A stretch of DNA of 44,586 nucleotides from an uncultured Bacilli bacterium (GTDB lineage: Bacteria; Bacillota_I; Bacilli_A; RF39; UBA660), in contig CANQKX010000001.1 in NCBI GenBank assembly GCA_947624565.1, forward strand, positions 1 through 44,586. Direction: 5' to 3'. The notes beneath the pieces were generated by a model. The model had not been told where the DNA came from and did not search any database. It saw only the letters and a list, made by a program, of their open reading frames with translations. Made by a program: the position numbers and the translations under genes. This document shows, in pieces, positions 3,066 to 9,539 of this stretch; the stretch's first letter is position 1; every line of letters begins with the position of its first letter.

Positions 3066-3873
3066 CAATTTCATCCTCCTCATCACTTTCAACTACAAAA
3101 GTTTCTGATTTTGGCATCAATTCATCTAATATCATTAATTTTAACTCATCAACAGATAAATTATAATTTAATTTACCTGAAACTGCTAATGAAACTCTTC
3201 CAGTTTCTTCTGAAACAACAATTGCCAAACAATCTGATTCTTCAGATATTCCAATTGCTGCTCTATGTCTTGTTCCAAGTCTTTTACTGAATTTCATATC
3301 AACTGTTGTTGGAAATACAGCTCCAGCACATGTTATTTTATCTCCTTGTATAATTACACCACCATCATGAAGTGGATTATCTGGGAAAAATATCGCTACT
3401 AATAATTCATTTGATATTTCAGCATATAATTTTTTACTTCTTTCAATATATTCTGATAAACTTGTGTCTCTTTCTATTACTATTAAAGCACCTATTCTAT
3501 TTTTTCTTAAATAATCAATAGCTACTCCAAGTTCAGATACTAATCTTTCTCTTTCTGTTACAGATAAAACTTTGTGTCTACCAAGTAATTGTGTTTTACC
3601 TAATTGCTCTAATACATTTCTAATTTCTGGTTGAAATATTATTATTATTGCCAAAGGCCCCCAAGAAATTAAATATTCAAATAAAAGACCAATAGTAGTA
3701 AGTCCGAAGAAATCACTTATTATTTTTATAATAATTATAGCTAATATACCTTTAAATAAAAGTGAAAATTTAACATTTTTTCTTACATTTTTAAGTATGT
3801 AATATAATACAATCCATACTAAACATATATCAATTATTTTCTTTAATATAGTTAAAAAGTTATCTAAATTCAT
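3052..3873 (-). CDS. cdaA: Diadenylate cyclase CdaA (membrane DAC)
   Basis: Makes cyclic di-AMP from two ATP. The 273-residue protein has three N-terminal membrane helices (about residues 10-85) and a DisA_N cyclase domain. The signature residues are present: DGG in PLHDGGVII and RHR in GTRHRAAIG, followed by VVSEETG. c-di-AMP controls potassium, osmotic and cell-wall homeostasis in Bacillota. A GGAGGG site precedes the ATG. It is the second gene of a lipoprotein-cdaA-cdaR operon, only 8 bp behind the lipoprotein gene. Confidence 0.95.
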   Translation of the reverse strand: MNLDNFLTILKKIIDICLVWIVLYYILKNVRKNVKFSLLFKGILAIIIIKIISDFFGLTTIGLLFEYLISWGPLAIIIIFQPEIRNVLEQLGKTQLLGRHKVLSVTERERLVSELGVAIDYLRKNRIGALIVIERDTSLSEYIERSKKLYAEISNELLVAIFFPDNPLHDGGVIIQGDKITCAGAVFPTTVDMKFSKRLGTRHRAAIGISEESDCLAIVVSEETGRVSLAVSGKLNYNLSVDELKLMILDELMPKSETFVVESDEEDEIDEIN

Positions 3874-3881
3874 ATTCCCTC

Positions 3882-4580
3882 CTACACAACATTATTTTTC
3901 TTATTCTTTATATAAACAAATAATATGATAAATACTATTACAAAAATTAATATTCCTATAATAATAACAGAATATTTTATATTATATGTTTTATTTTTTG
4001 TTTTCACATTTACATTATTCTTTTTACTACCTTCCTCATATGATACTTTGATAGTTTTTAAATCTTTACCTTTTTTTATGTTCCAAGTATACACATTACC
4101 ATTAACACTATCAGCATTATTTTGAGTTACTTTAAATGGTATTGTAATATTTATTTTAATATCATCATAAACAAGAGCATAACTATCATCATTACTAATT
4201 TTTTGACTTTGATTTAGTGTCAAAGTAGTAACATTGTCTTTTTTTTCAACAATTGCTTTATTGAATACATCACTAGTAAAATTATTTGCATATTCATTTA
4301 TATTATCATGGGATGTATATGCAGTAGCATATGTATATTTACTTTCATTTCTATAATCTAGTTCAACATCTTTGTCATCTCTTTTATACATATCATATAA
4401 ATAAGATATTGCTTGTTTCCCTTTTAATCTAGTTAATGATTCCATTCTATTTGTTTCTTCACTAGCAATAACAGTTTCGTTAATTGTATAATCTTCATTT
4501 ATTGTAAGATTATATTCAACAGAACAACCTGACAAAACTAATAAAATTAAAATAGTAATAAATAATCTTAGTTTTTTCAT
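3882..4580 (-). CDS. Lipoprotein with C-terminal membrane helix
   Basis: A 232-residue protein with a lipoprotein signal peptide (LVLSGC lipobox, Cys about residue 19), an extracytoplasmic domain of about 160 residues that opens with EYNLTINEDYTINE, a C-terminal membrane helix (YSVIIIGILIFVIVFIILFVYI) and a lysine-rich tail. It is paralogous to the lipoprotein at 40260-40916, with the same layout and the same opening motif. I do not recognise a named family with certainty. It heads the operon with cdaA and cdaR, so it may take part in envelope sensing linked to c-di-AMP; that is inference. Confidence 0.7.
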   Translation of the reverse strand: MKKLRLFITILILLVLSGCSVEYNLTINEDYTINETVIASEETNRMESLTRLKGKQAISYLYDMYKRDDKDVELDYRNESKYTYATAYTSHDNINEYANNFTSDVFNKAIVEKKDNVTTLTLNQSQKISNDDSYALVYDDIKINITIPFKVTQNNADSVNGNVYTWNIKKGKDLKTIKVSYEEGSKKNNVNVKTKNKTYNIKYSVIIIGILIFVIVFIILFVYIKNKKNNVV

Positions 4581-5575: not shown

Positions 5576-5597
5576 AAAGAGTCTTTAAACTCTTTAA
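5576..5597 (-). terminator. Terminator of nrdD-nrdG
   Basis: AAAGAGT/ACTCTTT arms (5576-5582 and 5589-5595) form a hairpin followed on the minus strand by a long T run; the nrdG stop overlaps its base. Confidence 0.75.
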
Positions 5598-6124
5598 TTC
5601 ATGTATTTATCAATTGTTATTACTTTGTTTTCTTTTAAACTTTTCTTAACATCTATAATTCTTTGATTGGAAGATCCTCTAAATTTTAATTTTAAATCTT
5701 TTTTAGAAAGAATAAATTCTCCATCTACTAAAACATCAATATAAGATAACAATTCTTTTGTCTCATCATATTTTTTACACATATCATTCAATATATCTTT
5801 ATCAAAAGTATATCCTGAATAACACCATATCGTTTTATTAGGAAATTCTTTTTTTATTCTTCTAATTAATGGTAATAATCCTAACTGATTTGAATACTCA
5901 AAGGGTTCCCCACCAAGTAAAGTAATTCCCTCTATATAATCATGATTTAATAAATCCATAATGAAATCTTCATTATCTTTAGTAAATTTTTTACCATACT
6001 TAAAATCCCATGCTTCTTCATTAAAGCATCCCTTACAATGATGAGTACAACCACTTACAAATAGTGAAACTCTAACCCCTGGTCCATTTGCAATATCTAC
6101 TTTTTTAATATCAGCAAAATACAT
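5594..6124 (-). CDS. nrdG: Anaerobic ribonucleotide reductase activase (radical SAM)
   Basis: Installs the glycyl radical on NrdD using S-adenosylmethionine and a 4Fe-4S cluster. The 176-residue protein carries the cluster motif CTHHCKGC near residue 26 and the downstream GGEPF SAM-binding motif (TLLGGEPFEY). Its length is normal for NrdG. Its start codon overlaps the nrdD stop by one base, so the two are translationally coupled in one operon. The enzyme is oxygen sensitive and fits an anaerobic life style. Confidence 0.96.
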   Translation of the reverse strand: MYFADIKKVDIANGPGVRVSLFVSGCTHHCKGCFNEEAWDFKYGKKFTKDNEDFIMDLLNHDYIEGITLLGGEPFEYSNQLGLLPLIRRIKKEFPNKTIWCYSGYTFDKDILNDMCKKYDETKELLSYIDVLVDGEFILSKKDLKLKFRGSSNQRIIDVKKSLKENKVITIDKYMN

Positions 6125-8250
6125 TATAAATGTGTTACCCTTGCTTTTATTTCTTTAGTCTTTCCAACATTCCAGAAGTTTTCACCTAAATAACCACATG
6201 TTCTTCTTGTAACATTCATTTTAGAATGATCTTTGTTTCCACAATTTGGGCATTCCCATTCGTTATCATCATTTATTATTATTTCTCCGTCAAAACCACA
6301 TACATGACAATAATCTGATTTTGTATTAAATTCTGCATATTGAATATTTTCATATATAAATTTAATTAATTCTTCTAATGCATCTAAATTATTTTGCATA
6401 TTAGGTATTTCTACATATGAGATACATCCACCTGAAGAAATTGGTTGAAATTGACTTTCAAATTTTAATTTTGTAAATGCATCTATTTTTTCTCTTACAT
6501 CAACATGATATGAATTAGTATAATATCCTTTATCTGTAACATCTTTAATACTACCAAATTTTTCTTTATCTATTCTAGCAAATCTATAACATAAGCTTTC
6601 AGCTGGAGTACCATATAATGCAAATCCAAGACCTGTTTCTTTTTTCCATGTATCGCATGCTTTTCTTAAATATTTCATTAATTTTACAGCAAATTTTTCT
6701 CCTTCTTCTGTAGTATGTGAAACTCCTTTTACAAGCATAGTAGTTTCATAAATACCAATATATCCTAATGATAATGTTGAATATCCACCTTTTAATAATT
6801 TATCTATTTTTTCGCCTTTTTGAAGTCTTGCTATTGCTCCATATTGCCAGTGTACAGGTGATATATCAGAAGTTATACCAAGTAATGAGTGATGTCTACA
6901 CATTAATGCTTCCTTACATAATTCTAATCTTTCATCTAAAATTTCAAAAAATTTTTCTTCATTACCTTCAGACAATATACCAATTTGAGGTAAGTTAATA
7001 GAAACAACACCTTGATTGAATCTACCTTCCCATTTATAATTTCCATTTTCATCTTTCCATGGAGACAAGAAACTTCTACATCCCATTGGACTAAATACAT
7101 TACCTTCATATATTTCTCTCATTTTCTTAGCAGATATATAATCTGGATACATTCTTTTTGCTGAACATTGACATGCAAGTTTCGTTAAATAATCATATTT
7201 ACCACCTTTAAGGCAATTATTCTCATCAAGAACATATATAAGTTTAGGGAATGCTGGTGTTACATATACACCCTTCTCATTTTTAATACCTTCGAATCTT
7301 TGTTTTAATATTTCTTCTATAATCATAGCATTTTCTTCAATATATGGATCCCCATCTTCTAGATGTAAGAATAATGTTACGAAAGGAGATTGTCCATTAG
7401 TAGTCATTAAAGTATTAATTTGATATTGAATAGTTTGAACCCCTGCTGCAAGTTCATCTTTCAATCTATCTTTTGCTATTTCTTCTATTTGTTTTTTTGT
7501 TAAAGTGTTCTTATATTTTTTTGTAAGTTTATTTACAAACTTATCATAACTCTTTCTTAAATATTTACCTAAATGCTTCATATCAACAGATTGTCCACCA
7601 TATTGATTACTTGCTACTGCAGCAATTATTTGTGTAGTTACAGTACATGCTACTTGGAATGATTTAGGGCTTTCTATTAATTTACCATTCATAACTGTAC
7701 CATTATCAAGCATATCTGATATATTTATTAAACAACAATTGAATATTGGTTGAACAAAGTAATCCATATCATGAAAATGTAATATACCCTCTTTATGTGC
7801 TTTTGATATTTTTTCTGGTAATATTATTCTTTCAGTTAAATCTCTTGATACTTCTCCTGCAATATAATCTCTTTGGGTTGAAGCAAGCATTGTATTTTTA
7901 TTTGAATTTTCTTCAGCTAATTCTTTATTTTCATTTCTTATTAATCTTAATATAGATTCATCTGTTGTATTTGCTTTTCTAATCAATGCTCTGTTATATC
8001 TATATACAATATAAGCTTTTGCAAGAGTAAATTTTTTATACTCCATTAATTTCTTTTCTATTTCATCTTGAATGTCCTCAACTAACATTCTTTTTTTCTT
8101 CATATCTTCAATATATTTAATTATATTATCTATTTGTTTAGAAGTTGCTCTTTCTTTTGGATCTACTTCACTATTAGCCTTTTCAATTGCAATTCTTATT
8201 TTACTTCTGTCATAATCTACTATTTTTCCATCTCTTTTAATTACTTTCAT
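6124..8250 (-). CDS. nrdD: Anaerobic (class III) ribonucleoside-triphosphate reductase
   Basis: Reduces ribonucleoside triphosphates to deoxy forms for DNA synthesis without oxygen. The 708-residue protein starts with an ATP-cone (MKVIKRDGKIVDYDRSKI, about residues 1-90), has a central ten-stranded barrel with the active-site cysteines, a C-terminal zinc site (CHVCGFDG and CPNCGNKD), and the glycyl-radical motif RTCGYLG with the radical glycine at about residue 686. No class I or II reductase is seen in the window. Upstream lies a palindrome placed as an activator site for the divergent Crp/Fnr gene. Confidence 0.97.
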   Translation of the reverse strand: MKVIKRDGKIVDYDRSKIRIAIEKANSEVDPKERATSKQIDNIIKYIEDMKKKRMLVEDIQDEIEKKLMEYKKFTLAKAYIVYRYNRALIRKANTTDESILRLIRNENKELAEENSNKNTMLASTQRDYIAGEVSRDLTERIILPEKISKAHKEGILHFHDMDYFVQPIFNCCLINISDMLDNGTVMNGKLIESPKSFQVACTVTTQIIAAVASNQYGGQSVDMKHLGKYLRKSYDKFVNKLTKKYKNTLTKKQIEEIAKDRLKDELAAGVQTIQYQINTLMTTNGQSPFVTLFLHLEDGDPYIEENAMIIEEILKQRFEGIKNEKGVYVTPAFPKLIYVLDENNCLKGGKYDYLTKLACQCSAKRMYPDYISAKKMREIYEGNVFSPMGCRSFLSPWKDENGNYKWEGRFNQGVVSINLPQIGILSEGNEEKFFEILDERLELCKEALMCRHHSLLGITSDISPVHWQYGAIARLQKGEKIDKLLKGGYSTLSLGYIGIYETTMLVKGVSHTTEEGEKFAVKLMKYLRKACDTWKKETGLGFALYGTPAESLCYRFARIDKEKFGSIKDVTDKGYYTNSYHVDVREKIDAFTKLKFESQFQPISSGGCISYVEIPNMQNNLDALEELIKFIYENIQYAEFNTKSDYCHVCGFDGEIIINDDNEWECPNCGNKDHSKMNVTRRTCGYLGENFWNVGKTKEIKARVTHL

Positions 8251-8293: not shown

Positions 8294-8352
8294 ATTGTAA
8301 CAGAAAAAAATATAAAATAAGTGTTGCATTTGCAACAATTTTGAAATATAAT
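8294..8352. promoter_or_regulatory. Divergent nrdD / Crp-Fnr promoter region with palindromic operator
   Basis: A perfect inverted repeat TGTTGCATTTGCAACA lies at 8322-8337. On the plus strand TTGCAT (8324-8329) and TATAAT (8347-8352), 17 bp apart, form the promoter of the regulator gene, so its -35 lies inside the palindrome. On the minus strand TACAAT (8294-8299) has a poor -35, and the palindrome centre falls near -42 of the predicted start: the class II activator position. The arrangement predicts activation of nrdDG and self-repression by the Crp/Fnr protein. Confidence 0.7.
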
Positions 8353-8400: not shown

Positions 8401-9033
8401 ATGAACGAAATAAGTATTTTTAGAGGAATTGACGAACAAGATGTAAAGTATATGCTTAAATGCTTTCAAGCAAAAACTATAACATATAAAAAAGATACTA
8501 CAATCATATCTAATTTAGCAAATACTAATATAATTGGTATCATTATAGATGGTGATGCAAATTTAATAAGAAATGATTATAATGGTAATAAAATTGTTTT
8601 AGAAAAATTAGAAAAAGGATCTATATTTGGGGAAGTATTTTCTTCTTATTCTGATGAACTATCAGTAATTGCAACATCAGAATGTGTAGTTACCACTTTT
8701 GATTATGAACATATTATAAAAAGATGTAAGAAATCATGTCCATATCATAATGAGGTAATTAATAATATGCTTCAATTACTTGCTAAAAAAGTAGTAGTTA
8801 TGAATAATAGAATAGATGTTTTAACAAAAAAAACTATTAGAGAAAAACTTCTTGAATATTTTTCAATTCAAGAAAAAGAAAATATATCTAAAACTTTTTA
8901 TTTAAAATTAAATTTCACAGAACTAGCAGACTATTTAGGGGTAGATAGAAGTGCACTTATGAGAGAAATAAAAAATTTAAAAAATGAAGGTTTTATTGAA
9001 ACAAAGTTAAATAGAATAAAATTATTGTATTAG
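8401..9033 (+). CDS. Crp/Fnr family transcriptional regulator
   Basis: A 210-residue protein with an N-terminal cyclic-nucleotide-binding-like beta-roll (about residues 1-115), a dimer helix (LLAKKVVVMNNRIDVL) and a C-terminal winged helix whose recognition part reads TELADYLGVDRSALMREI. No N-terminal four-cysteine cluster of the Fnr type is present; cysteines occur singly and in CKKSC near residue 110. It is divergent from nrdD and shares the operator at 8322-8337, so regulation of anaerobic deoxynucleotide synthesis is the likely job. AGGAGG precedes the ATG. Its end overlaps the convergent next gene by 4 bp. Confidence 0.88.
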   Translation: MNEISIFRGIDEQDVKYMLKCFQAKTITYKKDTTIISNLANTNIIGIIIDGDANLIRNDYNGNKIVLEKLEKGSIFGEVFSSYSDELSVIATSECVVTTFDYEHIIKRCKKSCPYHNEVINNMLQLLAKKVVVMNNRIDVLTKKTIREKLLEYFSIQEKENISKTFYLKLNFTELADYLGVDRSALMREIKNLKNEGFIETKLNRIKLLY

Positions 9034-9539
9034 ATTCTAACTTTATTTATTAATGTAAAAATCAAATCTATAATAAAAAGTATAGTAAATATTATTGTAA
9101 TAAATTTTGGAATTTTTACTATTAATTTATCCATCCATGGTTTTATTAAATATATAAATATTAAAGAACACCCCATCCATATCATAGAAATATCAAGGGC
9201 AATATATTTCCCAAAATGATATTTGTGATCAGAATAATTCCAAAATTCTTTTTTAAACAACAATTCAAGTAAATTTCCACCTATATATTCGGTAAATGTT
9301 AATACACAAGTAATAACTATTAAAAATATAATTATTTCTACAAATTTATTTAATTTTACTTTTTCAAATATATTTTTAGATATAAGTAATATTAACACAA
9401 CTCCAATACCATATACAGGTGTCCAATATCCATATAAAAAACCACTTTCTAAATCCCAATTAAAAATTTTAAATATTATTGTTTCAAGAAAGTGTCCAAA
9501 TATTGAAAAAATAAAAAAATAATTTAAATAATAATACAT
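9030..9539 (-). CDS. Five-helix membrane protein, putative ABC transporter permease (CmpB/PF06541-like)
   Basis: The 169-residue product is almost all membrane helices (about five) and contains the family pattern of an early GHFLE, then GFLYGYWTPVYGIG, an EYIGG in the third helix and W-Y-S before the fourth. The family is labelled putative ABC transporter permease in databases, but its transport role is unproven and no ATPase or binding protein is nearby. It overlaps the tail of the Crp/Fnr gene by 4 bp in convergent orientation and lies 30 bp downstream of the carboxypeptidase gene, probably co-transcribed with it. Confidence 0.7.
   Translation of the reverse strand: MYYYLNYFFIFSIFGHFLETIIFKIFNWDLESGFLYGYWTPVYGIGVVLILLISKNIFEKVKLNKFVEIIIFLIVITCVLTFTEYIGGNLLELLFKKEFWNYSDHKYHFGKYIALDISMIWMGCSLIFIYLIKPWMDKLIVKIPKFITIIFTILFIIDLIFTLINKVRI

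Follow-up and report, generated by a model that had tools for sequence, protein, structure and literature searches.

What acts at the perfect palindrome that separates nrdD, the gene of a class III (anaerobic) ribonucleoside-triphosphate reductase, from a divergent gene of the Crp/Fnr superfamily, and to what effect? The two genes lie in the window, a 44,586-nucleotide stretch of contig CANQKX010000001.1 (assembly GCA_947624565.1) from an uncultured Bacilli bacterium. An earlier, sequence-only reading of this DNA had placed the palindrome over the -35 box of the regulator gene and near position -42 of nrdD, and had predicted repression of the former and activation of the latter by one and the same protein. 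The comparative evidence presented below suggests that the palindrome is very probably the operator of the adjacent Crp/Fnr-type protein, which would thereby activate nrdDG and damp its own gene.

The palindrome and its locus

The regulator gene is divergent from nrdDG, and a perfect palindrome was indeed read in the intergenic gap that they share [coordinates are those of the window; aa, amino acids; bp, base pairs]:

8322-8337, no strand: operator TGTTGCA-TT-TGCAACA, 16 bp (TGTTGCATTTGCAACA), sequence read directly
6124-8250, minus strand: nrdD, class III (anaerobic) ribonucleoside-triphosphate reductase of the PRK09263 type, 708 aa (NF006732, 946 bits; cut-off 657)
5594-6124, minus strand: nrdG, radical-SAM enzyme activating NrdD (TIGR02491, 195 bits; cut-off 126)
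8401-9033, plus strand: Crp/Fnr-superfamily regulator gene, 210 aa (PF00027 and PF13545, both above cut-off)

The nrdD product also matches PF13597, PF01228 and PF03477. By itself, a perfect 7-2-7 palindrome is unremarkable in such DNA (window G+C 24.6%), as 17 are present in the window against 11.6 expected under a first-order Markov model, and 2 against 0.4 expected when at least six letters are G or C. The operator stands above chance because it is the sole exact copy of the 16-mer in the 1,061,629-base genome and is conserved beside homologous regulator-nrdD pairs. The lone copy with one mismatch falls within a glycosyltransferase-like gene.

Conservation and co-occurrence of operator and regulator

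The sequence-only reading had staked its case on conservation of the palindrome beside homologous regulator-nrdD pairs and had proposed scanning the genome and its relatives for it. Relatives were searched in 98 genomes (the window's own included), 59 of them in the window's family. The regulator is present in 46 of the 98, 28 of these within the family, and all 28 family regulators, own included, are separated from a divergent nrdD or nrdG by an operator with at most one mismatch, so that the case survived the scan; the operator is kept though the family regulator proteins diverge down to about 35% identity. G007, the one genus mate in which the regulator is missing, is also without an NrdD match.

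A wider survey covered 386 family genomes, scored for the exact operator followed by a -10-like hexamer and for the regulator at E 1e-15. The operator pattern was found in 136 and the regulator in 161; 133 genomes have both, 3 the site only, 28 the regulator only and 222 neither (Fisher p 1.2e-70). One of the site-only genomes harbors a 26-residue fragment of the regulator (G383) and in another the site is intragenic (G346). None of 20 nrdD copies unpaired with the regulator, consisting of 17 from regulator-less genomes and 3 second copies in regulator-bearing genomes, has an upstream site at two mismatches or fewer. In most regulator-less family genomes, NrdD is of another, longer kind, with open frames of some 760-805 aa and some 32-36% identity across the best-matching stretch; no upstream operator was seen in any of the 17 read.

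Beyond the family, a phylum sample of 392 genomes (19 from the window's family) yielded the strict operator pattern in 18. Regulator and nrdD flank the site in three genomes of family f19 (L257, L258, L259), and a single site in family f21 lies at nrdG2 with nrdD downstream (L254); no other locus looks real among the 15 read outside the window's family. Four distant homologues (L020, L023, L031, L033) display neither the operator nor an adjacent nrdD and the site is, therefore, not a trait of the whole protein branch. In a Bacillota metagenome-assembled genome (L037), the operator lies between the regulator gene and that of a divergent 90-aa protein (3611-3883, minus strand) in which the C-terminal third aligns with the final 30 positions of the NRDD model, reminiscent of a free-standing NrdD tail.

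Promoter geometry

Predicted promoter elements flank or overlap the operator as follows:

8294-8299, minus strand: predicted nrdDG -10, TACAAT, with an extended TG at 8301-8302 (TGTTACAAT), 22 bp past the operator
8324-8329, plus strand: predicted regulator -35, TTGCAT, within the operator
8347-8352, plus strand: predicted regulator -10, TATAAT, spacer 17, 9 bp from the operator

The nrdD -10 begins 22 bp past the operator, whose centre is thus at about -42.5; the span 8294-8352 delimited by the sequence-only reading runs exactly from the nrdD -10 to the regulator -10. The arrangement was then examined in 74 distinct nrdD promoters from loci fetched without any -10 requirement (a -10 being at least five of six matches to TATAAT). 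On the nrdD side, 64 of the 74 have a -10 at 21 bp (31 promoters) or 22 bp (33 promoters) past the site, gaps that place the operator centre at -41.5 or -42.5, the geometry of Class II activation, and the nrdD -35 retains only 0-2 of 6 matches in 65. On the regulator side, a -10 is found at a gap of 9 (17 promoters) or 15 (48 promoters) in 65 of the 74, with the site over the -35 region either way. Overlap with the regulator -35 and a position near -42 of nrdD, as first proposed for the single locus, are thus borne out here and across the set. As to the prediction that one protein activates nrdD and represses the regulator gene, the double geometry is conserved, while both effects continue to be deduced from that geometry.

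TTGCA and TGCAA, the inner letters of the site, hardly vary over 102 distinct nrdD promoters (loci fetched with a -10 filter included), partly through selection since sites were admitted at one mismatch or fewer. Among 20 promoters of other targets, some of which were fetched with a -10 filter, the best -10 (at least four of six matches) is located at 21 or 22 bp in 16, the exceptions by that count being L102, L131, L211 and L083.

Other probable targets in relatives

Among the matches listed, 128 distinct exact sites were read, and the counts that follow describe these sites rather than the whole family. Ninety-eight are located at nrdD/nrdG and/or the regulator gene; others precede nrdG2-nrdD (3), pflB (5), an MFS transporter gene (5), ligA (3), thyA (2), thyX (1) and the gene of a thymidylate synthase with a DUF4346 domain (1). 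In all, 118 of the 128 are found at the starts of these kinds of genes and 10 at none. Eight of the 10 are inside genes and were rejected as chance occurrences (L077, L110, L112, L118, L119, L125, L212, L222); L066, whose site is 448 bp from the next gene, was also counted as having none. In L110 and L112, the exact 16-mer sits inside the 3' end of a gene that by eye is rRNA-methyltransferase-like, just before rimM, and looks like conserved codons, not an operator. L184 (G006:C17, around 2001) presents an intergenic exact operator followed by a -10-like stretch (TGTTATTTT) with no clear downstream gene; a small RNA or short protein is possibly encoded there.

Target identities were assigned by Pfam and NCBIfam. 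The pyruvate formate-lyase (PFL) encoded by pflB scores 1214 bits with TIGR01255, ThyX 122 bits with TIGR02170 (cut-off 88) and LigA 849 bits (cut-off 369). Both thyA proteins fall under the thymidylate-synthase equivalog cut-offs, one being above the Pfam cut-off, and in L189 a dihydrofolate reductase (DHFR)-like gene comes after thyA. The MFS transporter is under every NCBIfam cut-off; a formate-transporter assignment was abandoned, as an L-lactate MFS model matched best (245 of 320 bits) and oxalate/formate models scored lower. Judging from its gene content, the regulon looks like one for anaerobic DNA-precursor supply. That it extends past nrdD in relatives is a point added to the sequence-only reading.

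In the window's own genome, PFL was not found and the exact site occurs only in the nrdDG-regulator gap. Sequences within two mismatches of the operator occur at 28 places in this genome. In the 20 loci with two-mismatch sites that were read, nearly all sites are intragenic (one locus accounting for three sites); the two intergenic exceptions, L139 and one of the three sites in L152, are not convincing as targets. Also among the 28 places, and outside the window, are three TGTTyCACGTGrAACA-like 16-mers, 36 and 38 bp apart (G000 contig C1, 90895-90984), which resemble what we take to be a parS cluster. Rfam and tRNA scans of the window returned no matches. A membrane-protein-like open reading frame (9030-9539, minus strand), which has no NCBIfam match, is convergent with the regulator gene and ends 4 bp inside the latter's 3' end.

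The regulator and a candidate sensor site

The regulator qualifies as a member of the Crp/Fnr superfamily by its matches to PF00027 (33.7 bits; cut-off 27.5) and PF13545 (32.1 bits; cut-off 27), and matches no named equivalog in NCBIfam. Its predicted structure (mean pLDDT 87.6) is about equally like CprK (Z 14.8, root-mean-square deviation 3.5, 195 residues aligned), CooA (14.8, 3.7, 197), HcpR (13.9, 4.4, 201) and FNR (13.8, 4.7, 201). The CRP model NF008732 gives 33.4 bits against a cut-off of 266. FNR is characterized by an N-terminal cysteine cluster that, together with a central cysteine, binds [4Fe-4S]; the present regulator has C21, C95, C109 and C113 as its only cysteines, with no close-spaced N-terminal cluster, and its sites read TGTTGCAn2TGCAACA, not TTGATn4ATCAA as in the FNR box. 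Two statements of the sequence-only reading, that the half-site departs from FNR and CRP boxes and that the protein is devoid of the Fnr cysteine cluster, were accordingly confirmed. The protein is set apart from HcpR by its motif and by the adjacency of all 28 sampled family regulators to nrdD or nrdG, and from NrdR by the absence of the Zn-ribbon and ATP-cone (TIGR00244). R183 and S184, aligned by eye, occupy the positions of R180 and E181 of CRP. R180 has been linked to G at the third motif position (PMC1274295), and R183 at this position is, under that rule, consistent with the retained TGT.

Four residues, encoded on the plus strand, form a possible redox or metal sensor:

8461-8463, plus strand: C21, candidate sensor residue
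8725-8727, plus strand: C109, candidate sensor residue
8737-8739, plus strand: C113, candidate sensor residue
8746-8748, plus strand: H116, candidate sensor residue

The sequence-only reading had left the sensed signal open; it was right about the missing FNR-type cluster and overlooked this candidate site, on account of which the signal is not wholly open. The full set (C21, C109 and C113 with a histidine at or next to 116; CCCH) is found in 37 of 101 distinct regulators; 1 has the three cysteines without the histidine, 51 have none of the scored residues and 12 display partial or other mixtures. On a tree of the 101, with 27 open forks, an arbitrary root and an incompletely settled bootstrap, the full-cysteine label has to change 8 times. 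The five rows from outside the family all carry the full cysteine set, and a 47-row subclade comprises no row with the full set and keeps the operator. The simplest reading is that an old Cys3His site was lost several times with the operator retained; it could instead have been regained.

Proposed mechanism and alternatives

NrdR (TIGR00244) was above cut-off in none of the 98 relatives, with control genomes positive in 9 of 14. The class I/II reductase domain PF02867 was detected in 1 of 59 family genomes, and NrdD is nearly always the sole reductase detected in the family. The one genome with PF02867 (G034) retains both regulator and operator. NrdR is just as absent from relatives in other families and from family genomes that lack the regulator; its absence bears no relation to the presence of the regulator, and the "replacement" of NrdR is therefore a reading, not a result.

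In the mechanism that we infer, a dimer of the regulator would bind TGTTGCAnnTGCAACA once in the intergenic region and, centred at -41.5 or -42.5, recruit polymerase to the nrdDG promoter (Class II activation), a promoter whose -10 is extended and whose -35 is almost absent. The same bound dimer would cover the -35 region of the regulator's own promoter with the result that less regulator would be made. In relatives, the regulator may also control pflB, the MFS transporter gene, thymidylate synthase with DHFR, ligA, and other types of nrdD/nrdG; the product of pflB makes formate, the reductant of E. coli-type NrdD. In the window's genome, nrdDG and the regulator itself would be the only clear targets. 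In CCCH-bearing members, that of the window included, the input is likely the redox or metal state at C21/C109/C113/H116, and the subclade that lacks CCCH must sense something else or act by protein amount.

Several observations weigh against this mechanism. The Class II position fits activation, yet repression at such sites exists. The regulator-side -10 occurs at two gaps, making the geometry of autorepression non-uniform. The operator-plus-hexamer pattern demanded a -10-like hexamer, so that the loci fetched with it are biased in spacing and were kept outside the 74 promoters. Twenty-eight regulator-bearing genomes are without an exact site plus -10, some of them having one-mismatch sites, and G234 has an operator at thyX and no detectable regulator. 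Finally, the thyX, thyA and DUF4346-type thymidylate synthase targets are each found in one or two genomes, and ligA in one genus.

Other explanations share part of this evidence. The regulator might be a general sensor of anoxia or nitrosative stress, an analogue of FNR or HcpR with altered DNA specificity, for which DNA-precursor genes are part of a set of oxygen-related targets. Both NrdD and PFL are glycyl-radical enzymes and, as is well established, oxygen-labile; 37 of 101 regulators have the CCCH set, and FNR and HcpR structures are among the close matches of the predicted model. Control of nrdDG by FNR in Escherichia coli and Dnr in Pseudomonas aeruginosa (PMC5645315) points the same way. 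No exact site was found, however, at hcp, ferredoxin or respiratory genes among the matches listed, the thyA, thyX, DUF4346-type thymidylate synthase and ligA targets are not oxygen-labile, and 51 of the 101 regulators are without the whole CCCH set in a clade that keeps the operator; we regard this explanation as a serious contender, if a somewhat doubtful one. A bolder reading, tentative in our view, is that a Crp/Fnr protein took over from NrdR as the regulator dedicated to DNA-precursor supply in a family of streamlined anaerobic Bacilli, activating through one 16-bp operator the deoxyribonucleoside triphosphate (dNTP) genes of each lineage (several NrdD types, the formate-making PFL, a transporter of the carboxylate type, thymidylate synthases of three unrelated kinds along with DHFR, and DNA ligase). 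It would sense redox or metal state through Cys/CxxxCxxH, the input having been swapped in one subclade with the operator unchanged. That the regulator senses a nucleotide (e.g. dNTP or NTP) in its cyclic nucleotide-type domain, and so stands in for the missing NrdR, would agree with the lack of NrdR in the 98 relatives, with the failure to detect a class I/II reductase in 58 of the 59 family genomes, with targets centred on dNTP and dTMP supply and with the presence of PF00027; the CRP model, far under its cut-off (33 of 266 bits), and the failure of NrdR absence to track the regulator make it unlikely.

Repression of both divergent promoters, with no activation of nrdD, is conceivable in that occupancy near -42 can occlude polymerase. 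It is rendered quite improbable by the near absence of an nrdD -35 and by a spacing fixed at -41.5/-42.5, a Class II signature; besides, NrdD must be on during growth because it is nearly always the sole reductase. Finally, the palindrome might belong to another factor, or be an RNA hairpin or terminator, the Crp/Fnr neighbor being incidental. In the AT-rich window, perfect 7-2-7 palindromes readily arise by chance, but the site is accompanied by the regulator in 133 genomes and unaccompanied in 3, none of the 20 nrdD copies without the regulator has it and, being upstream of both predicted -10 boxes, the site would be in neither transcript; we consider this explanation hardly credible.

Comparison with known systems

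Accounts of ribonucleotide reductase control usually centre on NrdR together with host factors. In the present large group, where NrdR was not found and NrdD is nearly always the sole reductase, nrdD is marked by a single Crp/Fnr operator, which in relatives also stands at other DNA-precursor genes. About a hundred natural promoters and regulators are available for the study of DNA specificity and Class II spacing, and the candidate Cys3His sensor comes with natural loss variants.

FNR control of nrdDG in E. coli was reportedly described by Boston and Atlung in 2003 and, to our knowledge, the FNR and Dnr genes are not as a rule adjacent to nrdD. Control of nrdDG by a Crp/Fnr-superfamily protein through a promoter palindrome is common to the present system and to those of FNR in E. 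coli and Dnr in P. aeruginosa (PMC5645315). The box of P. aeruginosa, TTGACGCAGATCAA, is FNR-like (PMC5645315), unlike the site described here, and E. coli also has NrdR (PMC12176259). HcpR and HcpR2 are likewise Crp/Fnr-type regulators of anaerobes, often encoded beside their main target and devoid of the FNR cysteine motif (PMC1274295, PMC12915319), and the DNA motif of HcpR drifts with residues 180/181 (PMC1274295, Rodionov et al. 2005). HcpR differs in its targets, hcp/frdX (PMC1274295, PMC12915319; C. difficile hcpR was also compared), and in its motifs, wTGTGAn6TCACAw, TTGACn4GTCAA and GTAACn4GTTAC, versus TGTTGCAn2TGCAACA here (PMC1274295). NrdR shares with the present regulator the control of ribonucleotide reductase genes (PMC12176259). 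It differs in not being found in the 98 relatives. The FLP of L. casei has a thiol switch, and the Flp DNA box differs from TGTTGCAn2TGCAACA. Flp proteins of lactic acid bacteria and streptococci (FlpS) resemble our regulator as Gram-positive, FNR-like proteins with few cysteines and a link to oxygen or redox, and differ from it in often having two cysteines, versus a cysteine plus CxxxCxxH here (PMC5039431).

A literature search on nrdD, Crp/Fnr, HcpR, FNR, thymidylate synthase and Flp found neither the half-site, nor the site strings in any paper, nor an account of this regulon and target set, an absence that is weak as most subscription journals were outside its reach. We take the regulator to be of a known kind, distinguished by its operator, by a coherent set of DNA-precursor targets and by a candidate sensor site for which no report was found.
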